A stretch of DNA of 64,000 nucleotides, from NCBI RefSeq assembly GCF_000004825.1, contig NW_008805069.1, positions 62,001 to 126,000 on the forward strand, in the 5' to 3' direction. Made by a program: the position numbers and the translations under genes. The notes under the pieces are model-generated. The model worked only from the letters and a program-made list of their open reading frames with translations, ran no database searches and was not told the origin of the DNA. The stretch comes from Heterostelium album PN500 (Eukaryota; Evosea; Eumycetozoa; Acytosteliales; Acytosteliaceae). Shown piece after piece: positions 11,277-53,812 of the stretch (its first letter is position 1; every line of letters begins with the position of its first letter).

Positions 11277-12699
11277 ATGTCATCAATATCAATCGAAGAT
11301 GACTTAAAGGTGAGAGAAGAGGATACTGATGATGAAAATGAAATCCAACAACATTTATTCTATAGTTATTCGGATGATCAAGGTAAATATATTCTGTATT
11401 TTAGTTTTCCAACAGAATTGATTCTAAATTTTACTCTAGATTTTAAAGAAAAATATAAATATAATATGTAATAATGATAGAGTTTTGAAAGAAATCTGTA
11501 AATCTAATGGGTGGGACTTCAATCAATCCGATCCAGACTTAATTTGTGAATTTTTAAGTGGTTTAGAAATAAACCAACGAGGTCGCACAGATTCGAATGT
11601 TGGCTCAGTAGAAATCAAAGAGCCCAAACAGAGTGATAATTGCCCTCAAAATCTTGGTAATTTGACTCCATTTCAAATCTTTACTCTATTCTTTGATTTT
11701 AGTATCATTGAACTCATAACGACAGAGACCAACTTATATATGGATCAAAAGGGTATAAATCTAGAGTTTGAACAAAATTTCCAATCAAAGTGTACTTATG
11801 AGATCTTAATTGCTTTTATTGGTGTTTTACTATGCATGGGAATCTGTAAAATGCCATCTTTTTCTAGTTATTGGAGAGGAAATGGTGAAGGATTCACTCC
11901 AGTTCGAAACCTAATGTCTAGAAATCAATTCACCAGTATTTATTCAACTATTCATTTTGCAAATAACAACCAAAAAGATCCAAACGATATCTTTTACAAG
12001 ATTAGACCATTGATTCGACACTTGGAAAGCAAGTTCATGTTTTATTGGAAACCAACAACTATTTTATCAATTGGTGAAGATTTAATTGATTGTCGTCAGA
12101 ATCATCCTCACCTTCAGTATATGTTTGATCAACCAACTAAATGGGGATTTAAGATGTTCAAGCAAGTTGATAGTAAAGGCTACCTCTTTTCGTTTAAGAT
12201 CCACCAAGGGAAAATCGGTCAAGATAAATCTACACCTACGGAAAGAGGATGTACCGAAAATCACATTCTATATCTTCTGAATCATTTGCCAAAAGATCAG
12301 AAATATCACATTTGTATTGACAACTATTCTGCCCGCATAGATACTGTCGAAGATTGTAAAGAAAATTGTAAAGGTGAAACAATTACTAAGGAATATCCAC
12401 AAGAGTTGAAGTTTTATCGAATTTACTCTGGACATGTAGATAGAAACAATGAAAATACATCTCAACACCAGATTGTTTTGGAATCTCGTAAATGGTGGTT
12501 CAATATATTCAAATACCTTCTTTCCCTCTCCATTGTAAACTCATGGGCTATTTACAAAGAATGGCATACGATATCACTTCCTGATTTCATTAAGGATATT
12601 ACCCGTCATATTTCCAAAAACTATAGCACTCTTATCTTGTCAAAAAAGAACTCTAATCCAAAATCAGTCAGTAAAACTAAATTTCAAAAATCAAAATAA
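11277..12699 (+). CDS. PiggyBac transposase-derived protein, catalytically degenerate (440 aa)
   Basis: Exons 11277-11382 and 11483-12699 give 440 residues. The start is the ATG of MSSISIEDDLK; an acidic N-terminus follows. Family landmarks of the DDE_Tnp_1_7 (piggyBac) fold appear in order: TPFQIFTLFFDFSIIELI, FIGVLLCMGICKMPSFSSYW, LMSRNQFTSIYSTIHFAN, QPTKWGFKMFKQVDSKGYLFSF, HICIDNYSARID and RKWWFNIFKYLLSLSIVNSW. The first catalytic Asp (usually SxDE) reads SIGED near residue 232, so the acid is displaced or lost. The second (CIDN, about 314) is kept, and GHVD at about 354 stands for the third. The spacing between the second and third is about 40 residues against about 100 in active piggyBac, which implies an internal deletion. 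No Cys-rich C-terminal domain is seen. It is either a decaying element or a domesticated PGBD-like gene; the long intact frame fits either. Confidence 0.82.
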
Positions 12700-17142: not shown

Positions 17143-18014
17143 CTTTTGAAAGATACTATATTCTCTCACTCGATATATATATATAAATTATACAAATATA
17201 ATTGTTCAAACAAAACTAGTTTTGTTTTTAGTTCTTTGTTAATCTGAATGACTTTACTATATAGTTAATTAATTAATGTTCAATGATAAATAGCAATTTA
17301 ATTTTGAATATAAAAAAGATAAATTGTTTTAATAAAAAATAAAAATAAAACTAATTAATTAAGATTTGTTTGATTTTTTTTATTTTTTTATTTTTATTTT
17401 TTTTATTGCCTTGAGTAATTTTGAGTTTACAAGATCATTTTATATCAATTCTTTGTTTGTGCTGGTATTCATATCAATAAAATAATTCATTAATTAATAT
17501 TTAGTTTTAACTAAATTGTTTTTTTTTTTCTTAAAAAAAATTTAATATTTATTTTATTAAATATTAAATTGAAAGAATATGAAATTCAAGTGCACACCTG
17601 AGAATATATATAATAAGAGTGTGGTATTATATTGAATCCATAAAAATATGGTGGTGAAATAAAGAGGGAGAAAAACAGATAATATATTTTTATATATTAT
17701 TCAATTTCACATTTTTTTATTTGATTTTTTTTTTGTTCATATCTTTAAGATATCTATCTATTATCTATTATATATCTAAATAATAATTAGTAAATTGCTT
17801 GTAAATAGATATTTTTTTTAATATTTTTTTTTAAATTGGGAACTTTCCCAAACGTAGATTTTTTTGGTTTATTTTTTTTTTGGACAAGATTAAGATAAGA
17901 TAGGATACCATAGCATAGGGAATAAGAAGAATCATATAAAATAATTAATAATTTATAACTATAAAGATAATAATAATAACAAAAAAAGAGTATAGATAAT
18001 CTTCTCAAATAATA
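17143..18014. other. Divergent promoter region between atg12 and the SIS-domain gene
   Basis: About 870 bp of AT-rich DNA with many T tracts. It separates two divergent genes, so it should contain both promoters. No motif or gene can be assigned. Confidence 0.5.
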
Positions 18015-19964
18015 ATGAATAAACAATCAATTACAGAGACACCTAATGAATTGACAGGTGAATTAGATTCTCTTTCATCTATTGAGATGTTAAGATTGTT
18101 TAGACAAACAGATGCACAGATATTCTCTGGCTATAAAGAGTACCCTGGAATCAACGATACTCTTATTATAGATCATATGGTGGAGCTGATACATTGCATA
18201 CAATCGCTTACAGTGAGTCGTGAAGTCGACTTTGTAGTGAGTGGTGCCGGTACGAGTGGACGTCTAGCATACTTCTTGGCACGTTCTTTTGCCAAGTGGA
18301 CATCGCTACCAAACGCACGATATCACTATCTCATTGCAGGAGGTGACCGCGCGCTAACTGTAGGTGTCGAGGGTGCTGAGGACGATATCGAGCAGGCACG
18401 TGCCGACATCAACTCTATCATGCGACCAAACGCAATCGTCGTCTACTTTGGTGTGACATGCGGATTGTCAGCGCCTTATGTTGCGTCGCAAATCGCAAGA
18501 CTTCTCGATTGCAAATCCGACCATATCATCAACGTCGTCGGTTTCAATCCGTTGGAACGCGCCAGAACTAATATCATTGAAAAGTGGGACAAGTCATTCG
18601 CCGATGTCATCAACCAGTTGGATTTCAAGAGTGGAAAACACTTCTTGGTCAACCCGATTGTTGGACCGGAACCTCTAACCGGATCCACCAGAATGAAGTC
18701 CGGAACCGCCACAAAGATTCTCCTTGAGATAATATTATCGTTGGGACTCAAGGGTGTGATGGAACGCACCGATATAAAGTCGATGATCTATCAACGACTG
18801 AGTCAATATGAAATGGTGTATCGCGCGACTTACCGGTGTGTTGAGGGTGTCGCGCGCATAGTAGACGATGCCGGCAGCTCGTTGTCGAACCACGGACATC
18901 TCTACTATCTGGGTAGCAAGAGTCTTGGTATTGTTGGCTTTATCGATGCATCAGAGACAGTGCCGACATTCGGTGCAGGACACTTGGATGTTCGTGGATT
19001 CATTATGGACGACGAGGAGAAACAAGGTTGGATGGTAATGGACAACAAAGACGGTGATCAAGCTCATCTCTGTGAACAATATCGTATCTCACAATCACAT
19101 TTCATCAGCATGATTCCCAGCATGGAATCAAACGATACCGTCGTCATCTCGATATCATCCGACGACTCCATAGAACTATATCAACCGATTCTAGACTCAC
19201 TATCAGCAAAGAACGACAAACGACCAAGAGTAAACATAATTTATTTCAATCATGAGAGTAATTCGATAAACAATAACAATTGTATTAATATAAGTGGTAG
19301 TATCAATAACAACAATAACAATAATCAAAATAATAACAACAACAACAACAACAACAACAATAGTAGTAATAATAATTGTCATAGCAATGGAAATAGTCAA
19401 GTAAATTCATTAAAGAATAGTAGTTGTGTTGGATCAGGTCTATCAATGTTGAATCTCTCTCAGAATGTATACACATTAACAGTTACCCTACCGTTTAAAA
19501 CCATAGATAGAGTACCGTCGTTCTATGAGCTATCGCTAAAGTGGATATTGAATGCTTTGACGACCGGTGGTTTCGTACTGGCCGGCAAAGTCTATGGTAA
19601 TAGAATGATCGATCTCGGACTGACCAACAATAAGTTATTCCATCGTTCGTGCGGTATCATTGAGAAGCTGTTTGGTGTTAGTGCACTCGAAGCCAGAGAC
19701 TCGTTGCTCCGTTCGATCTACAGTCTCGAGAAGAACGACCAAATACCAGAGGCAGTCAGTACTGCACCAATCTACCAACACATCGACTACGCCAACCAAA
19801 ATACAATCACACATATCATTCCAGTGGCACTCCTCATGGCATCGGGTCGGTTCGACTCTCCACTGAAAGCACGTGAAACCATAAAGAATACTCCTGTCAT
19901 TAGAAAACTATTACAACAACATCAAAATAATAATAATATTCAACCATCTTTATATTCTAATTAA
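18015..19964 (+). CDS. Glucokinase regulatory protein-like double SIS protein (649 aa)
   Basis: An intronless frame. The first SIS domain carries VVSGAGTSGRLAYFLA (near residue 75-90), the phosphosugar-binding loop, and VGPEPLTGSTRMKSGTATK (about residues 216-235), the signature shared by glucokinase regulatory protein (GKRP) and bacterial MurQ (N-acetylmuramate-6-phosphate etherase). The Glu in GPE lies where MurQ places its catalytic acid. A second SIS-like half follows (ETVPTFGAGHLDVRGF, then LTVTLPFKTIDRVPSFYELSLKW), interrupted by an Asn-rich insertion around 19260-19400. Length and the two-SIS layout favour GKRP over the 300-residue MurQ. In animals GKRP binds glucokinase under fructose-6-phosphate control; in an amoeba that eats bacteria a MurQ-like breakdown of peptidoglycan sugars is also possible. 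Which applies cannot be decided from sequence. Confidence 0.82.
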   Translation: MNKQSITETPNELTGELDSLSSIEMLRLFRQTDAQIFSGYKEYPGINDTLIIDHMVELIHCIQSLTVSREVDFVVSGAGTSGRLAYFLARSFAKWTSLPNARYHYLIAGGDRALTVGVEGAEDDIEQARADINSIMRPNAIVVYFGVTCGLSAPYVASQIARLLDCKSDHIINVVGFNPLERARTNIIEKWDKSFADVINQLDFKSGKHFLVNPIVGPEPLTGSTRMKSGTATKILLEIILSLGLKGVMERTDIKSMIYQRLSQYEMVYRATYRCVEGVARIVDDAGSSLSNHGHLYYLGSKSLGIVGFIDASETVPTFGAGHLDVRGFIMDDEEKQGWMVMDNKDGDQAHLCEQYRISQSHFISMIPSMESNDTVVISISSDDSIELYQPILDSLSAKNDKRPRVNIIYFNHESNSINNNNCINISGSINNNNNNNQNNNNNNNNNNNSSNNNCHSNGNSQVNSLKNSSCVGSGLSMLNLSQNVYTLTVTLPFKTIDRVPSFYELSLKWILNALTTGGFVLAGKVYGNRMIDLGLTNNKLFHRSCGIIEKLFGVSALEARDSLLRSIYSLEKNDQIPEAVSTAPIYQHIDYANQNTITHIIPVALLMASGRFDSPLKARETIKNTPVIRKLLQQHQNNNNIQPSLYSN

Positions 19965-40876: not shown

Positions 40877-43800
40877 ATGTCAACATTTAATTTATTCAGT
40901 AATAACAATGGAATTGGCGATGGAATGACCAAAAAAGATAAGGACAAGGAAAAGAAGGATAAAAAAGAGAAAAAGGACAGGGAAAAGTCAGAGAAGAAAT
41001 TAAAGCGTGAACCTTCGAAACCCACCATGTTTCCAAGATTTTTTTCATCGAAATCCAACAATTCCGGCAACAACAACAATATCCAACAGTCACCTGCAAT
41101 TAACAGTACCGCAATGAATCACTCTCAATCCTATGAAGAGATGTCAATTACCAACTCTGCATCAAATTCAAACACTGATCTTTCAGAGTCATCAACCAAC
41201 AATACCAACATTAACAATCCAACAACATCAACAACAACAAATTCTGAAAGTTATCCAATTCAAAATGATAATAATAATAATATTAATAATAATGGTGATT
41301 TAAATTATAATAATAACAATACCAATAATAATAATACTAATAACAATAACAATAATAACAATGTTAGTTATTCTCTGAGTGGAATAACAAGTGTTGGTGG
41401 TGGAAGATTGAATCATGTTGCAACGATAACCAATGGAACAGTCTCTGCAACCTACATGAATAATACATATAAATTGCAATCGACCATAACGGAATCCGAC
41501 AATTCCATTGACTCTGTCAATCAAACACCACAATCATCAATATCGACATCATCGTCATCGTCATCGCTACGCTCCAGCAGCGCCAACAGTCTCAACCAAC
41601 GATCATCTTCATTCTCCTCACAGCAATCCAACACCTTTGCAATACCATTCACAAAGTTGACTCAATCCACTGATATGCCAACAAATAACAACAACAACAA
41701 CAAAAATGTAATATTAAACTCATCTAATGATTCATCTAACAACAACAGTAGTAGTAGTAATAACAATAGTAATAGATCGACTCTCAAAAAATCATCAAAT
41801 AAAATCAAAAAGATATATAATTCACTGCGCTTTACGTTGAGAGGTGGTGAGAAGTCGAGCAGTCATCCCTACCAGTCGAGCGGTGTCAACGATTTGTCGT
41901 CGAGTTCAGGCAGCATCGGTCACATGACTAAATCATCGTCACAATTCGACTTTGCAGTGCCACTGCCGCTCTTTGACCAGCAATTCCCATCGATCATACA
42001 GTTTATCAACTCACAGAACAGCAGCAGTAGCAGTAACAATAACAACAGCAACGACAATCTCTACTTTGGTGTACCACTGGCGCATCTCTCGAAACGACAA
42101 GACAACGGAACAGGTCTACCTATTCTAGTTGAGAAATGTATATCTTTCCTTGAAGGTTATGGTATGTAACTATTTTAACTAACTATCTTATTAAACATTA
42201 ATATTAACAAACTACTATTTTTTATATAATATAGTTAATGTTGAAGCATTATTCAAGAATAAGTTTGATATGCAAAAAGTACAGTCATTGAAACATCAAT
42301 TTGATACGGTCGGTGATGCCAATTTCTTCTACCCAGAACACCAAGATCCAAACGATGTAGCGGCATTGTTAATAGAATTCATCAGTTCATTACCAGATGA
42401 ATTGTTAAACATTGAGTTGTATCAAGCTGTTATAAGTCATACAAATGCTTGTAAGTAATGATGATAATAATAATATTTAAATACTTTAATAAGCTAAACA
42501 ATAGTAATTAACTTTACACTTTGTTATATTCTTTTAGTGAAATCTGAATATGGTGGATATTGGGATATACAGTACATGGTTAGTAAACTGCAAAGAGAGG
42601 CTAGAGAGACAGTTCAGAGATTGTTAGCATTCCTCAAGCAATTGGTATCACACTCACCATCGCCACAGACATGTTTAGATCAACTGTCTGCTTTATTCAC
42701 ACCGCTACTCGTCAATCACAAGTCACATCTAATCTTACAGCCTGCAACCAATATATTAATTGAAAGATTCGAAGATCTATTCATAGATGTAAGTTATTCT
42801 TAACTATATTTATTATTATAACATATTTATTAGTATTTAGTTTATTAATCAATAGCTAACTATTTTATTATTTATTTCTTATTATTTAGAATGATAATAG
42901 ACCAACGACATTGGCAAGTGAATTTATAATGTTACAAATAGAGAAAGTACTGATACCTTCGAACAACTTGAGAATCGTAAATGATCAAAAGTCAAGTCTC
43001 GAGGTTACAGGCTGGGAAACTGGTACACTCTATGTCACCAACTACAGATTGATGTGGATAAAGACAGAGGATGATAGCGGACACTATCTACTGCCTGAAG
43101 ACTACGATCGTAACAAACAGGAGATGCATATCAAACCCTATCAAATAGAGATTGTACTTACATCCTCTATCAAATGGGAACACGTTGGAAAGTCATCGTC
43201 ATCATCATCGTCGTCATCGAAATCATCAAAATCAAACAAGTAAGTTTAATCACTAATCATTCAATCAATTAAGAAATGTAAATAATCTAACTAAATATAT
43301 ATTATTATTATTCTTTTTCAAAGGATTCAATCTTTTATCTATTTATTATATTGTAAAGATATGAGATTCCAATACTTTGCATTCCCAGATGATTTCAATA
43401 TGGATAGATTCAATTTGATATTGGCATACTATATGAATCCAGTCAGTGACTTTGGTAGATTCTTTGCGTTTGTCAATCAAGAGATACTCACCACCGAAGA
43501 GAATCAAGAAGGCTGGGAAATCTACTGTCCAACCAAAGAAGCTGCAAGACAAAAGATTGATTTAACAAAAGAATGGAAGATATTTAATGTATGTTATTAG
43601 TTAATGATAACTAATTAATCATTTACTTACTTACCGTTTTGTCTAGTTTACAAATAAAGAAAGTATATCACCAAAGAGAGTTGTATTACCGAATAGAGTA
43701 GGTGAGGAACTGCTGCAATCGTATGCCAAGAAGAAGATTCCGGTGTTCAGTTGGATACATCCTTATAGACGATCAATGTTGTTCCGACCGAGTGTTCAGA

Positions 43801-46800
43801 GTGGTGCACCACCACCTTCGATCGGCGGTAGTTTGACTTCGTCCGGTGGTATCTCGATGAGTACAACCAATGCCAGTGTGCAATCGTTGCAAGGATCGAC
43901 ACAAGGCGTCAGTTCTCTAGGTGGCAGTCTCAGTTCATCCACCGAGGAAGGTTCACTCCAACAATCGCCACACAAGAAGCGTTCCGCTCTCGACAAAACA
44001 TTCTCACCGCGAACACTCAACAAATCACTGTCGTCCAAGAACAAAAAGGATATTTCATTCACGAAACTACCGACTTCAACAACAATACTAACTGATTCCG
44101 TAGATATTATGTTGTATCAACAATTTGTAAATAGTGATAACGTTGGCAGTAGTAATAATAATGGAGGAGGATCACCTTCTTTACTTTCACAATCTGGAAA
44201 TAATTCACCGGTATTTGGATCAGCACAAAGTGGAAATAGTAGTAGTATGCATACTCCACCTTCGCCAGGTGGAAAACGTAGAGTCGAAGCATCGATTGTC
44301 TTTACCAACAAGTTGGATATCAATTTCGTGTCGGTCTACGATCAGTTCAAGTTGAATTCAAACATTGTGTTCTTGGGTGTGGCGCCACGCGAAGAGGTCG
44401 AACAACACTGGTTCGAACTGTACCGTTCGATCAATATGTTTGATGGCAGTTCAGAGGCATGGCGATCCATTGAGGAGTCGGGCTGGGTAGAGTCGGTGCG
44501 TCAGTTGATCGAGGGCAGTGCGCGAATCAGCACGATCCTCGAGGAGGGAACATCGGTCCTTGTGAAACCATCGATCGAATCGAACCTGCATACATTCGAC
44601 GTGGCACGTCTCACTTCGATCGTCCAAGTGATGTTGGATCCCTACTACAGAACTCTCAACGGTTTCATGACGTTGATCGAGAAGGAATGGGTTCAATACA
44701 ACTTCCCGTTCCTCAACAACCAGAGTCAGGCGAATGGCAGCGGTGGCAGCGGCAACAGCTCCTCACCAAATACAACACCGAGTTTGAGTGGAAGTATCAG
44801 TGGTAGCGGTAGCTCCAGTAGTAAGAAAGGATATGGATCGATTTCCAAGGGTGGAGGTGGAGGTGCACATGGATTCTCAATTGACGATAAACTCAATGTT
44901 GATCTCTTTGATTCCGCGTGTAGAAAGTCTCCGGCTTTGTTTGGTGACAGTCATCCTGATTCTGCGGGATGGGTCAACCGTTCGATTGCACCGACGTTCG
45001 TTCAGTTTATCGATGCCATCTGGCAGATTCAACGTCAATTCCCATTCCATTTCGAATTCAATGAGTCGTTCCTGCTGTTTGTTGTCAACGAAGCGTTCAC
45101 CGGTCGTTTCGGAACGTTCCTCACGTCGGAGGTCTGGCGTGAATCCGAGAGGAATGTGTTGCGCCGAACACCATCGGCGTGGGCATACGTCATGCAAAAC
45201 AATGCACTCTACAAGAATCATCTCTACAAGTACGGATCGAATACACTCTCGCCAAGCGAAAAGCGTGAAGACTATGAGTTTATCAAACCGTCGTACGACG
45301 CTAGCCAAGTCGTACTGTGGGCGTCGCTCTTCACCGCCAACATCAATTCGCGTGACTCCCATCATCAACTCTCAAAGAAACTGATTGGAAAGATGAAGGT
45401 TGATCTTTCACTGAGCAAACTAACATTCTTCAAGATGCAACACTCGCATCTGGTGTTCTGCGCGTCACTCACCTCGATTGACCTCTCGCGTAACTACTTC
45501 AATTCGTTCCCCTCGGAGCTGATTCTCCTCACCAATCTCGTCACTATCAATCTGAGTGATAATCGTATCAAATCGATTCCCTCCGCTCTACTCAAGCTGA
45601 TTGGCAGCAAGTTGAAGTTGATCGAGCTCAATCTCTCTGGCAATCTACTGGAGTCGATTCACAAGTCGATATGCACCATGTCAACACTGCAGAAGCTGCT
45701 ATTGGATAGCAATCGTCTCATTATCATTCCAGAGTCGATCAGCAAGATGTCCTCGCTCCGTGTGCTCTCTGTCAACAACAACAAACTCTCGTCGTTCCCG
45801 CAAGCCATCTCCCTGATGACCGGACTCGAGGAGTTGTACATCGCCAACAACCACATTCGTGATCTCCCACTCGGTTTCTTCAAGTTGCGCTCACTGCGAA
45901 TTCTCAATTTGAATTGCAATCTGATTGCCAAGTTGAAGTCACACAAGCTCGACGACAAACTCTTCCTCATGAACTCGATTGAGACATTCAAATGTGGCAT
46001 GAATCCACTCATCAAGATATCGAATATGCTCTACGAGATGAAAACTCTTACGCACTTGGAGCTGACCGGTTGCAACATCAATGTTGTTCCACCACGTCTA
46101 CTCGATCTCGTCCAACTGGAAACACTGCTACTCAACCAAAACAAGCTGACAGAGATTCCTGCGGACTTTGCCAAACTTACCAGACTATCATTCTTGGATC
46201 TCTCTGACAATCAATTCGCTACGGTTCCGTCCAACGGATTGTTACCGTCACTCAAGCGGTTGTACCTCTATAACAACTCTATCTACTCATTCACATTCGG
46301 TCCACATGTCCTTCCAAGCATTGAAGATCTCCGTCTGGATGGCAACAGAATCAGCTATGTTTCACCGTCGATCGGACGTCTCACTTCGTTGATCTCACTC
46401 AACCTTTCGCGTAACAACATACTTGTTCTCCCACATACAATCGGACAGTTGGAGAAACTACGTAATCTAACAGTGACAAACTCAACGATGGTCGCGCCAT
46501 TCAAGGATCTCGACAGCACTGATTCCATCATCCGGTATCTCCGTCAACAAATGACGGCGTCATTCTACAGTCCGCGTGGCAAACTCGTGGTGATCTCCGA
46601 TCCCAGTATAACCTCAAAGAATGAGATCATCCGTACAATCACAGCAAGCAATAACAAGCAGCGACGAAAGGCAGTCGAGCAACAAAAGAAAGTTCCCAAG
46701 TGGGAGATTGAGTTGACCGACTCGGAACCGACCACTCCCGGCGGTGGTTCCAGCTCGATCACCCAGCGCAAACGCAACATGAAAGTATACATTCGTGATA

Positions 46801-49683
46801 TCTCCAGTGTCATCAGTACGTGCTCCCAACATCTGTACACGCGTAGAGCGATCTACCTGGTGCTCTGGACCGTCCAGGAATCAGAGGAACCTCACAAGCT
46901 GTTCCGTTCGCTAGAGTTGATCAAAGATCGTTGCACCTCTGCCAGCGTCTACGTCGTTGGTGTCTTCAACGAGAAGGAGAACCTTGTCACCCGTGACTAC
47001 TTCTTTTACATCTATCAAAAGGTGGAGCAACGCTGTCAGATGATGTTCTCCAGCTTCACTTTCAGCTTCCATTTGCTCAGTAGCAGCAACAGCTCGTCGG
47101 ACGGACTCCTCAGACTTCGCGAGGAAATCAAGTCAACCTTCTTGAAGCAACGACAATACGGAAGTAAAGTATCGAGTTCACAGCGACTGTTTGAGCGACA
47201 TCTCAAGACATTGCAATCTCCCTTCATTTCAAAGCGTGACATCCACGCCATCGGTGAGATGTGCGGTCTCGATAAGATCGGTACGAAAAACGCATGTGAT
47301 CTACTCACTGAATTTGGACTACTCCTTTGGCTTGATGATTATGAATGGGTCGTCCTCGATCCAATTTGGTTAACAACAGCATTCAGTTCTCTATTAACAG
47401 TTAAAACAAGTAATAATAATAATAATAATAATAACAATAACAACAATAATAACAACAGTTCCAGTTCTTCAACTTCATCGAAGCGTGAAATTATTTTGAT
47501 GAGTGGATTGGAAACTATTTGGAATGATATTCCCAATAGGCTATATCCATTCCTTCTAACACTTGCCAAACGTTACAATGTTGCTTTCATCATTGATACA
47601 CTCTATGATCCATCTACCTGGGGATACACCTATGTCAGTCCACTGCAATCGATGAACAGCGGTTCTTCGCTGTCCAACTCACAACTCCGCTCGCTAACTT
47701 CCTCGGGAAGAGGTTCTCCCTCAAAGGCACTCTCACCCAACGGCAAATTCGGTATGCTCTCTCCGAACCGTCTCAGTATCACTCCAGGCCAGAACTTGAA
47801 GCTCCTCACTGAGAAAGTGATATTCCTCCCACTGGAACTACCGGATTCCCCACCGAAACCGATCGACCAGATGTTCCCCATACAGGAACCAAGAAGTGTT
47901 GGTCGTATCTATGTTTTCGAGAGTAAGATACCTACGAGCTTCTTCCACAGGTTGCTCAGCCAGCTCTACATGTTCTGCTCGATCAAGTGCGCTTGGAAGA
48001 GTGGAGTCGTTCTGGACAACTGTTATTTGTCGTTCCCCATTGCCCGGAGATACGGTGATTCCCCAAACAAAGCGTACCGACGTAGTAGCACTTTCAGTGT
48101 CTTGACATCCGACGATTTGGTAATCATCCAACTCTCAGAGGCAACACAAACCATTGAGATTAGCTCCACCAAGATGTGCAGACACATTCTCCAAACGTTT
48201 GAGAGTATCCTCGAATCCTATCCGGACATCCAATACAAAGCATTCGTACCATGTTCACACTGTATCGATTCGAAACGTCCTGAAAACCATCTCTTCCCAC
48301 TGGAACAAGTGGAATCTGCAGTGGTCAAAGGTAAATCCTATCTCTCATGTCCAACCACTGGTTCCGTACCCATTAAACTCAATCAATTAGTACCTGATTT
48401 AACAATGTCTGATCTTAGAGTAAGTGGCAACAATATACAATGATCATGATTTTTGAAATTGAATCACAATTTGTAATTAACAATTTGCGCGTTTATTATT
48501 ATTATTACAGCATAAATTAATTGATTTTAATGAAGTACAATTGGAAAGTGAACCAATTGGAGAAGGTGGAAATTCAACAGTCTACAAGGGCGTTTGGAGA
48601 AATAATATTGTTGCCGTAAAGATGCTTCAGACCGATAATATTGGTAGTAGTTTTACAAAGGTATTCTCTGAATTCAGAAGGGAGATTTTCATTATGAGTT
48701 CTTTCTATCATCCGAATATTCTGGATCTCAAAGGATTCTGTTTGGAACCGCTCTGTATTATCACAGAGTTTATGAGTGGTGGTAATCTCTACGATTATCT
48801 TCACAATCTCAACTACCCACTCGATTGGAAACTAAAGATAAAGATGGCCAAAGAGATTGCCGGCTCGCTACAGACACTCCACGATTGCAAACCCTCGGTT
48901 ATCCATCGTGATTTGAAGAGTCCGAATATCCTGTTGTCTTCGCGCGACCCCGACAACATGTCGTGCCAACTCTGTGACTTCTCACTCACTGGATTCTCTA
49001 CGAGTTTGTCGTCGCGTGCCGTCGAGAATCCCGTGTGGCTGGCACCAGAGGTGATCGCCAAGGAGAGTTGCACCGACAAGAGCGACGTCTACTCGTACGG
49101 TGTCATCTTGTTTGAGTTGCTTTCGCGTCAACACTTTTTCGAGGGAATCAGCTTCATGAGCAATCTCGAGCAAATGATCTGCGATGGCATTCGTCCGCAG
49201 CTCCCGACCCACTCGATCCCCGAGTACGACTCACTCCTGAACGCCTGTTGGAATCAAGATCCTTCGCAACGTCCGAGTTTCGCAGAGATTCAGAAACGTT
49301 TGGATTTGATAGAGACAATCATTGAGATGAGTAATCCAGATCCTCCAATTCCATATAATTCAACAGGAATTAAAACAACAACTACTACGACAACTACTAC
49401 CACCACCTCGTGTGTATCACAAACACCAACACCAATGCAAACACCAAGAGCAATAACCACCTCAAATGACGTACAAACAACACCATACAAAGCACCACCA
49501 CAACAAACATCGAAATCCAACAATCAAATCACAATAACAATCTCACAAACCGGTAGCAGTTACCCAACAACACCGAGCCAAAACAGCTCAGTCGTCTCTA
49601 CACCAACTATAATTATGACTCCTGTACAAATGGAAACAAACAGTAATAGTAGCAGTAGTAGCGAAGAAGAAATACATTTATAA
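40877..49683 (+). CDS. Roco family kinase with RhoGAP-like, myotubularin-like, LRR, ROC-COR and kinase modules (2770 aa)
   Basis: Exons 40877-42161, 42235-42450, 42538-42788, 42890-43239, 43324-43588, 43647-48419 and 48511-49683 join in frame to 2770 residues. After a basic, Ser/Asn-rich N-terminus comes a RhoGAP-like domain (FGVPLAHL near residue 396 to about 560), a GRAM/PH-like segment (GTLYVTNYRLMWIK, about 590-780), a myotubularin-like domain (TSIVQVMLDPYYRTLNGFM, IEKEW, FVQFIDAIWQIQRQFPFHFEF, FGTFLTSE), about 14 leucine-rich repeats (1400-1735), a ROC-like domain (1763-1957), COR (to 2380) and a TKL kinase (2390-2645). The kinase keeps GEGGNSTVYKG, VAVK and HRDLKSPN; DFG reads DFS. The first three enzyme-like modules lack key catalytic residues (see findings). 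The layout recalls Dictyostelium Pats1/Roco9, which act in cytokinesis and signalling; orthology is not proven. Confidence 0.9.
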
Positions 49684-50387
49684 ATAATTTAATTTAATTT
49701 AAAAAAATAACATTTATTAATTATTAATTAAAAAAGAATAATTACACAAAAAAAAAAACATTAAACAAACAACTCTCTATTTATAAGTTATATATAGTAA
49801 CAAATTTAATGTTTGCTTGACTATTTTGAATGATTTTAAATATTAGTACAGATATATATATAACTTTGTTATAATTCCAAGTTGTATTTATTTAATGCAG
49901 GACTGTTTTAAAGCATCACTTCAAACTGAAATAACTGTTATAAGTTTAGTTGTTCTCATAAGTGTGTATATATACTTATTGATTTTGATCAAAACAACAT
50001 GTAGTTAATCATTTGTTTTAAACTAAAACAAACTTGGCATTTTATTTCAAATATTGTTACTAATCTCTCTTGTTTGTTTGCAATACTTGAATAATATGAT
50101 ATTGACTAAACACACATTAATTTATTTTAAAAAACTAAAAAAGTCATTGGAAAAATCAACTCATTTTTGATTGCATAATGAAGGAATGAATGCAAAAAGA
50201 ATTGATTTTTTTATTATTTTAGAAATATCTGTGTTATTTTACCTTTCCTTTTTTTATTATTTATTTTATATATATATATGTATATAATTTTGTATTTTTA
50301 TAGTTTTATTTATTGATTAGATTTTTATATATTTATTGCAAAAAAAAAAAGTAGAAAAAAGATAATCATCGAAAAAGATAAGATAAG
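49684..50387. other. Intergenic region, nothing recognised
   Basis: AT-rich spacer between the Roco gene and the HPS6-like gene. No open frame of note. Confidence 0.5.
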
Positions 50388-51524
50388 ATGGTTGTAGATT
50401 TCCAATTTTCAACGTTTGATTCTAGGAGATGGGGTTATATTCGTGGTCGATCTATACTCTATAGTTTGTTGCAGTCGCGTGAGTTGACCGGTGACTATGG
50501 TGTCGATGCCATTCAGATTGTCAGTGGTCACGTTGCCGTTCGATACCAACAGTCTCGCTCACTGGTGCTGTTCGACGCTGTCGTTGCCGCCAAGCAGATG
50601 TCAGAGATGCAAAACTCCAACACCGAATCGATACTCAACTCCAAGACACTGTTACCGCCAGCACCCACCAATCATCACGCTGAGCAATTCCCTCTGTTGG
50701 CATGTTCATTCTCTTCACCTATAGTAAAGTTTTACTTTGAGAAATCTGCTACCAATATAATACCATCGTCAACATCGTCAACATCAGCATCAACAGGAAA
50801 GACAAAAGTAATTGAAAATAGTCCATTAAGATTGTTTGTATTCGAAGAGGATGCGCTACTACATGTGTTTGAGTGGTCGGCTTCGGAGTACAGATGGAGC
50901 TACATTGTAAAGTTGTATCTGCCATCGATTTCACTGACGGAACCCAGTGGAACACCGCAACTTCCACACACTGGACACGGCCAGCTTGTACATGCATCGA
51001 TATTCTCTACGAATCAAGGTATTCAGGTGATTTGGATGATGGCGAATTCATCATCACTTCAAATGCGACAGTTTAACTTTGACAATAATAAGACGGCGGC
51101 ACAACCGGTTGCGGGTGCCAACACTGCCAAGAAAGAGAATAACAACGTAATTATCAAGCAGTATGCTCGTGGACTTGAAGAGATACTATGTAACAACCTA
51201 AAGGTTACACCAACAGAGAACTACGATATAAAGAAAGAATGGTTTGAAACTATAAATAACAACAACAACACACGTATTCTAACGAGTAAACTTGGAATAT
51301 GGTTTATCACTAAATCATTTATACTACTCTATTCAATACGTAGTCGTGTTTGGTTCATTTCCTATTATAAAGATAAAGCACCATCACATGTTAAATCATC
51401 AACAACAACAACAACACAATTTAATAGTAATAGTAACAGTCAATCACATTGTGATTTACATGATTTAGATAGTAATAATAATGATATTGTTAATAACGAT
51501 AATAATGAAGTTAAAGATAATCAA

Positions 51525-51569
<45 letters not shown>

Positions 51570-53812
51570 ACAAATAGTTATAGTAGGAATCAAATTATTG
51601 TTGATGTACTAGATGTTTGTATACATCCTCAAACACAACAGTTGATCGTTCTAGAGAGATCCGGTAGAGTGTTTACATGTGATACCGGCGATCGTGAGAC
51701 ACTTAGATTGACGCTGTTGGCTGTGTTGGATCCATGGAAATCGATAGACGATCCTACAAAGACAATCAGGTTGACTCTACATCAGAATGCACTCGTAGTA
51801 ATCAACGGAACCAATACCAACTTTTACGATTTCAAGTGTGGCAAGTTGCTTACCACCCTACAAGCACCGGTTGATCTCCAACAAGTGAAAACCGGTGGTA
51901 TCTGGGAGCAAACACCCATTGGAATAGTCTGGGGAACCGGTATATGGGCACGTCAAGAAGGTCTCTGGGAGATCAAGGCTGGACCACCACTTCATCTAAT
52001 TGAAAATCACCTAGTAAAACATAAAATAGTACAAAATCAACAACAACATCGACAACAAAGTGGTAAACTTAATAGTAATGGTAATAAGAATCAAAGTATT
52101 GGATGTGCACCAACTACTTGTAGACAGTGGGATATGAAACGACTTGAAGCAAAGTATCTACTGGATATGGCACTGGCCGAGCAGGATGAAGAGATGAAAA
52201 TACAGATTTGTCGTGCACTGCTACCGAAGCTTGAGAATCCGTCGTTGGTCATTGTGTTGCTATCGTCGATGCAGTCAGAGTCTAGCTCGAAATTCATTCA
52301 AGAGGAACTTGCCAACTTCCTCGATGCTTATAACTACCAACCTGACAGCCATAACAGTAACAACAGCAGCAACATAAATAACTCATCTGTGGAATCGGAG
52401 GAAGATAACCAAGCTAAACAACGTCAATCACTCTACCTACATACACCACTCAACCGTATAATGGTACCATTGTTAACGGATTATCATAATCTACAGAGAT
52501 CTATCAAAGAGGAACAACAACAACAACAAGCTATACAAATAGTTGAAAATGATGCTTCTTCTTCCTCTTCATCTTCAAATAATGGACAGATTCCATTTAT
52601 TGGTGAGGATGACCATTCTCTGCAATCGATTGACGATTCCAAGTTGTTGGAATTCTCAAATGAATTCTTGGAGTTGTTCAAGCGCAAGAATCCATTGCTT
52701 CTTCTAAACAAATTCGAAAGACTGTTGGGACTGGATCGTATCGATTTCGAAAAGTATTCGGATCTCAACGGTGAGATGATTCCTTTCCCTGCGATAAACG
52801 AACTGCTGCTCCAACAAGAAGAGATGTTAAAGAAGAAGAGTGTCAACAAAAATAGTAGTAGCAGCAGCAGTAGTAATAGTAGCAATCTTCATCATCACCA
52901 TAATCATAATATTCTTTCAAATGGTCATCTGCATTATGATGATTCCAATATGTCTTTATCACCAACATCACCACCAACAACAGGTAATAGCAGTATTCTA
53001 AATCACAGTAATAATATGATGGTATATCCTGTTTATCCGTTGTACGAGACACTGTGTCAACTTTACTACAAAGAGAAACCGGAACGATTAATTCCATTCA
53101 TTCGTATCGTTTATAATGCTGCCACCACCAGAATGTTGGAACAACAGGCCAATACAACATTCACATCGTCGGCATCGACCGCCATGGAAGTCACCAAGTT
53201 CATCCCTCAGAACGACCACTTTACACGTGCACTCATCTCACTACCAACACTTATCCCCACCGACGATGCCAAGATCGATGCCAAATTCAAGTTGCTCTGT
53301 GCCATCGGTCATAAATCCAACGCACTTCGCTGGCTACTCACAGCCGGTAAATGGGATAAAGCCATTCAAATGGTAAAGAACAGTACTTATAATGATAAAG
53401 AACATTTTGTATTATTTGAAGTATGTATACAAATCAATCAACAATTTCAATATTTACTAACTATTAATTGATTGATTGATTCAAACATAATTATTTGAAA
53501 TAGATATTATTCTGTCATTGTATAGAAAAGAAAGATAGTGTTAAACTTAAACAATGTTGGTCAGTCATTCCCAAGAACTACTCGGTATTCAATTTATTCT
53601 CGATATTGAAACCAAATCAATCGACCAGTGGTACCTCTGGTGATAAATCATCGAGTGCAAGTAACAGTGGATTCTACAGTGAAGGTAGCTCCAGTATCGG
53701 TAGTCTACTCAACAAAGAGAGTAGCAGTCACACCAAGATCGTATCTGTCAACCCCTCTGAAGATCTTACCATCGATATGTTTAGAGCACAACTCTTAAAA
53801 TTATTAAATTAA
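50388..53812 (+). CDS. hps6: HPS6-like BLOC-2 subunit (1113 aa)
   Basis: Exons 50388-53420 and 53504-53812 join in phase 0 to 1113 residues. The N-terminal half looks like a beta-propeller. Several segments match the pattern I know of animal HPS6: TQQLIVLERSGRVFTC, NGTNTNFYDFKCGKLLTTLQ, then in the helical half LYETLCQLYYKEKPERLIPFIRI and WDKAIQMVKNSTYNDKEHFVLFEILFCHCIEKKD cut across the intron. HPS6, with HPS3 and HPS5, forms BLOC-2, which directs vesicles to lysosome-related organelles. Poly-Q (51525-51570), poly-Ser and Asn tracts explain the extra length over the animal protein (about 775 residues). The match is by eye and weak outside those blocks, so a different trafficking propeller/solenoid protein cannot be excluded. 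Confidence 0.6.

Follow-up and report, generated by a model that had tools for sequence, protein, structure and literature searches.

The sequence of a giant Roco protein of Heterostelium album PN500 suggests that, on paper, three of its four enzyme activities have been lost and that the kinase alone is intact. The gene lies at 40877-49683 on the forward strand of a 64,000-nucleotide stretch of contig NW_008805069.1 (positions 62,001 to 126,000; assembly GCF_000004825.1), hereafter the window. Our alignments show that its RhoGAP, myotubularin and Roc modules each lack the residues needed for catalysis, that COR is kept, and that the kinase retains its catalytic set and carries a serine in place of the DFG glycine. 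What is new here is this natural serine, at the position of LRRK2 G2019, in a Roco without GTP motifs, for which no report was found in the small body of literature searched; an earlier sequence-only reading of the window had listed the Asp of DFS alone. The interpretation that we tentatively favor is that the kinase may be uncoupled from GTP and biased toward its active state by DFS, in a roco9-type 'IMLRK' protein with a discarded GTP switch.

Results

The window kinase is intact at the Gly loop, the VAVK Lys (K2417), the alpha-C Glu (E2438), HRDLKSPN (2512-2519), the DFG Asp (D2536) and APE, and thereby has the four residues expected of an active kinase (VAIK Lys, alpha-C Glu, HRD Asp and DFG Asp). 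This bears out the sequence-only reading, in which the kinase was said to keep its Lys, HRDLKSPN and the Asp of DFS, and adds the Glu. The serine, S2538, aligns with Ser of Roco4 chain 4f1m, which we take to be the structure of the G1179S mutant (the alignment itself shows Ser in this chain), and with Gly of chain 4f0f, while R2437 aligns with the Roco4 Arg preceding the alpha-C Glu. The higher rank of 4f1m (165.1 bits) over 4f0f (163.3 bits) was set aside, because the query itself carries Ser and the ranking hence gives no independent evidence.

Roco4 Gly1179 is the counterpart of LRRK2 Gly2019, and both LRRK2 G2019S and Roco4 G1179S raise kinase activity; in the Roco4 mutant Ser1179 bonds Arg1077, and adding Arg1077Ala restores the normal level (PMC4017136). 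The window kinase thus resembles both mutants in its serine, and Roco4 also in the partner Arg. Unlike these disease or engineered mutations, which stand beside a normal Roc, the window serine is natural and the accompanying Roc lacks GTP motifs. It shares a natural DFS with TbDYRK of T. brucei, a kinase of a different group (DYRK) that is not known to have Roc-COR. TbDYRK is active and has been called pre-activated, and replacing its Ser with Gly leaves about 13% of the activity (PMC7136023).

Within the genome searched (32.9 Mb, 39 contigs), the DFG site of the 10 other Rocos reads DFG in seven, DYG in one, DLG in one and DLS in one, the last being a gene on contig C4 that has lost HRD, and none of the 10 combines Ser at the DFG glycine with an intact HRD. 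All eight other PF07714 kinases read at this site have DFG, in a small, non-random sample drawn from among the best-scoring of 156 PF07714 matches.

The second part of the finding is the Roc, which standard searches miss. Pfam gives no Roc match in the window protein at E values up to 1, and the window gene is not among the 137 matches listed by a genome-wide Roc search (150 of 170 candidates scored); it is among the 11 matches of a genome-wide COR search (12 of 12 scored). Profiles identify the stretch between the leucine-rich repeats and COR as Roc. Compared by hhalign with an alignment of eight of the 10 other Rocos (two omitted), the LRR-COR stretch reached a probability of 96.6%, and a hidden Markov model (HMM) on the same eight scored 52.0 bits in the window region against a maximum of 4.6 bits over 200 shuffles. 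A single-sequence PDB search of the region gave a weak LRRK1 match (E 0.007); its top line, a kinesin, was discounted because the match is owed to an asparagine run. The gene therefore has the Roc-COR tandem that defines the Roco family by homology, with Roc recognized by profile only.

A functional Roc has GxxxxGK[ST], DxxG and [NT][KH]xD, and the window Roc has none of them: G1 and G4 are replaced by unrelated residues (Table 1) and the G3 DxxG is gone. A one-residue insertion aligns a Lys with the P-loop Lys, with both the Gly and the Ser/Thr still missing; nucleotide binding thus appears very unlikely rather than excluded. Erosion of Roc is graded among the paralogs, from the intact C11a (84.5 bits) and C10a (70.5 bits) through C37 (26.2 bits, cut-off 27) to the window gene, which is undetected.

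The two upstream modules likewise lack catalytic residues, as the sequence-only reading had proposed for all three. In the RhoGAP, K436 stands opposite the p50RhoGAP arginine finger, and an Ile and a Gln stand opposite two further GAP residues, p50RhoGAP Lys122 and Asn194. An in-genome RhoGAP alignment recovered only five of the 17 rows intended, and its paralogs had been picked by an Arg-finger-like pattern; being biased, it was set aside in favor of the p50RhoGAP alignment. In the myotubularin, KPSIESNLHTF replaces the HCSDGWDR loop of active members. The MTMR2 match of amino acids 585-789 falls into two stretches, of 8.2 bits (PH-GRAM start, weak) and 35.9 bits. Among 12 myotubularin loci in the genome, the HCSDGWDR signature is missing from all four Roco-linked loci and present in four of the remaining eight, the other four (L021, L022, L025 and L026) giving no match to the pattern. 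Four Rocos with an inactive myotubularin in this genome compare with two reported for D. discoideum (PMC2927912).

The gene has seven exons joined throughout at GT-AG and forms a single open frame of 2770 codons with one stop at 49683; intron GC is 13-25%. In each of the nine segments tested, Roc included, the reading frame has a positive codon score and both alternative frames have negative ones (for Roc, 0.324 against -0.146 and -0.086), which argues for a maintained gene and against a recent pseudogene or frame errors there. Along the 2770 amino acids the order is RhoGAP, PH-GRAM/myotubularin, leucine-rich repeats, degenerate Roc, COR and kinase.

Table 1 Features of the window Roco gene (aa, amino acids; positions in the window).
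Feature	Position	Strand	Basis
Exons 1-7	40877-42161, 42235-42450, 42538-42788, 42890-43239, 43324-43588, 43647-48419, 48511-49683	+	GT-AG joins
N-terminal low-complexity region, about aa 1-395	40877..42061	+	translation; in-frame codon score
RhoGAP domain, aa 415-562, split by two introns	42119..42722	+	Pfam RhoGAP 75.1 bits; p50RhoGAP E 2.8e-11
FKNK, arginine-finger site of GAP, now Lys436	42252..42263	+	p50RhoGAP alignment
PH-GRAM-like part and phosphatase-fold start, aa 585-789, one intron	42890..43588	+	MTMR2 E 4e-11; Pfam Myotub-related positions 2-101, 31.6 bits
Myotubularin phosphatase domain, inactive, containing low-complexity inserts; from aa 790 to about 1375	43647..45404	+	Pfam 154.7 bits (exon 6); MTMR2 E 4e-32
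KPSIESNLHTF replacing catalytic loop HCSDGWDR	44565..44597	+	myotubularin alignments
Leucine-rich repeats, about aa 1376-1740	45405..46499	+	Pfam LRR_8 107.8 bits, 7 stretches
Degenerate Roc (pseudo-GTPase), about aa 1745-1975	46512..47204	+	hhalign 96.6%; HMM 52.0 bits; LRRK1 E 0.007
SDPSITSKN at P-loop (G1, GxxxxGK[ST]) position	46596..46622	+	Roc alignment
VGVFNEK at G4 position (VGTHLD in relatives; THLD to VFNE)	46956..46976	+	Roc alignment
COR-A and COR-B, about aa 1973-2373	47196..48398	+	Pfam 39.7 and 54.6 bits
Protein kinase domain, about aa 2389-2658	48535..49344	+	Pfam PK_Tyr_Ser-Thr 179 bits; best PDB match 4f1m, Roco4
FRREIF: R2437 (equivalent of Roco4 Arg1077) and alpha-C Glu E2438	48673..48690	+	Roco4 alignment
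CDFSLTG: D2536, F2537, S2538; Ser at DFG glycine (LRRK2 G2019, Roco4 G1179)	48973..48993	+	Roco4 alignment
C-terminal low-complexity tail, without WD40	49345..49680	+	translation; Pfam

The architecture itself is not new and, judged by sequence against published descriptions, is the RhoGAP-first (roco9-type) version of the IMLRK plan. Kerk and Moorhead (2010) named this amoebozoan plan, gave roco9 as its RhoGAP-first version, and reported the myotubularin as inactive in both Pats1 and roco9 (PMC2927912). As described, roco9 of D. discoideum (DDB0191512) shares with the window gene the N-terminal RhoGAP, inactive myotubularin, LRR, Roc-COR and kinase; Pats1 of D. discoideum and its likely counterpart here, the Pats1-like gene at C11:36-46 kb, share with the window gene the inactive myotubularin, LRR, Roc-COR and kinase. 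The C11 gene, unlike the window gene, has WD40 and an intact P-loop (GQENVGKT). The sequence-only reading had noted that no WD40 follows the kinase, unlike Pats1. The absence stands, given that the tail is low-complexity and the next open reading frame (ORF) matches no Pfam family at E values up to 0.1 (50382-53471, 1,029 amino acids, 0.7 kb downstream), but Pats1 is not the closest comparison, as a RhoGAP-first protein is of the roco9 type. Several Entamoeba relatives have poor Roc residues and were judged unlikely GTPases (PMC2927912), and in the D. discoideum kinome roco10 is described as the sole apparently inert ROCO member (PMC1420674). In a 2021 survey P. pallidum is credited with 10 Roco GTPases (PMC8923023); our COR search found 11 places.

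Of the kinases in the 10 other Rocos, that of the C11 gene comes nearest to the window kinase (47% identity). The 25 Pfam families listed, of 30, for the main ORF of the C11 gene include no RhoGAP; its upstream exons lay outside the scan. In the in-genome kinase tree, C11a and C10a form the sole supported pair (96/94), with no supported placement for the window gene. The C10 gene (300-306 kb, L053) is a Pats1-like sister of the C11 gene, with no WD40 match in its 1,751-amino-acid ORF. At C37:21-28 kb (L055, L056) lies a Roco with a dead myotubularin, GSNRGGRSS at the P-loop (Lys to Arg), HND for HRD and DLG for DFG; a RhoGAP-like stretch suspected there by eye was found neither by Pfam (E up to 0.1) nor by PDB search (E up to 10). 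The Roco at C4:590-597 kb (L057) has an upstream RhoGAP match, Kelch, RGS, an intact P-loop and a kinase with ITNL for HRD and DLS, and, to judge by sequence, is in part the window gene's mirror image. A single search for relatives across bacterial and archaeal genomes yielded nine pattern matches, none confirmed. Elsewhere in the window are a transposase ORF (11440-12699; DDE_Tnp_1_7, E 1e-62) and an ORF with matches to three glucokinase regulatory protein (GKRP) domains in Pfam (18000-19964).

Discussion

If the favored interpretation is right, the pseudo-RhoGAP would bind Rho/Rac GTPases and the PH-GRAM/pseudo-myotubularin would bind membrane or partner lipids, together bringing the protein to the cortex. 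Roc-COR would serve as a nucleotide-independent dimerizing scaffold, and the kinase would need no GTP loading, with S2538 holding it nearer the active state, possibly by a hydrogen bond to R2437 as in Roco4 G1179S. Location and dimerization, and not a Roc GTPase cycle, would then determine output. OCRL1, whose RhoGAP is catalytically dead yet binds Rac1 and Cdc42 (PMC6563779), offers a precedent by analogy for a dead RhoGAP serving as a binding module. A membrane-localizing role has been proposed as possible for the PH-GRAM part (PMC2927912), and the suggestion of the sequence-only reading that the dead upstream modules serve the kinase as platforms for binding or regulation is plausible and was largely anticipated in the same paper.

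Several observations weigh against this interpretation. The partner Arg is unspecial, the Arg1077 equivalent being Arg in six, His in three and Lys in one of the 10 other Rocos. Only in the window gene do a worn Roc and a Ser at the DFG site with intact HRD coincide, so that a link between them is a hypothesis; the worn Roc of C37 goes with DLG, and C4, the other Ser-bearing Roco, is a pseudokinase. The serine and the dead Roc are seen in one gene of one genome, and any residual nucleotide binding through the alignable P-loop Lys would also count against uncoupling. Single-sequence AlphaFold models of the kinase and the Roc region (mean pLDDT 43.1 and 47.1) are too poor for distances. When the TbDYRK Ser is changed to Ala, about 70% of the activity remains (PMC7136023), so there stiffness and not the bond counts. 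D. discoideum cells with Roco4 G1179S develop poorly, resembling the knockout (PMC8455996), and a primed Roco kinase would therefore need some other restraint. A tabulation of chemotaxis phosphoproteins lists D. discoideum Roco9 with the entry 'No development defect' (PMC6397043), and the function may hence be subtle.

It is a serious possibility, if one we hold with some reserve, that the gene encodes an ordinary roco9-type protein, in which the dead GAP, myotubularin and Roc act as scaffold, the kinase is controlled by dimerization and activation-loop phosphorylation, and the DFS serine is near-neutral drift. Both the architecture and the inactive myotubularin are already known from roco9 and Pats1 (PMC2927912), and the combination in C37 of a Roc just below the cut-off with DLG means that Roc loss and DFS need not coincide. 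However, drift to Ser is set against its rarity at this site (0.4% of kinases in human, 2.5% in T. brucei; PMC7136023), and against the activating effect of the same Ser in Roco4 and LRRK2 (PMC4017136). That DFS is instead the first step of a fourth loss, leaving the whole protein a scaffold, seems improbable: kinases are eroded in two other Rocos (C4 and C37), and one of the two Ser-bearing kinases seen is a pseudokinase, but every catalytic element of the window kinase from the Gly loop to APE is intact, with a Pfam score of 179 bits. We consider it very improbable that active modules only look dead through recent decay, assembly error or wrong splicing, given that the Roc region and the myotubularin loop both lie within one 1591-codon exon with in-frame coding signal and that the changes are scattered over several motifs and involve more than one base.

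The control of the kinase by the Roc GTPase is a central open question for LRRK2. Should the serine be inert, the gene would simply add one more ordinary example of the known IMLRK plan. The stronger proposal, that evolution made and kept the equivalent of LRRK2 G2019S in a Roco unable to bind GTP, giving a constitutively primed kinase steered by pseudo-enzyme modules, is on present sequence evidence rather doubtful. If true, a dead Roc joined to a G2019S-like kinase would be a natural test of a kinase running without the GTP switch, and also of how a cell tolerates a permanently primed Roco kinase.

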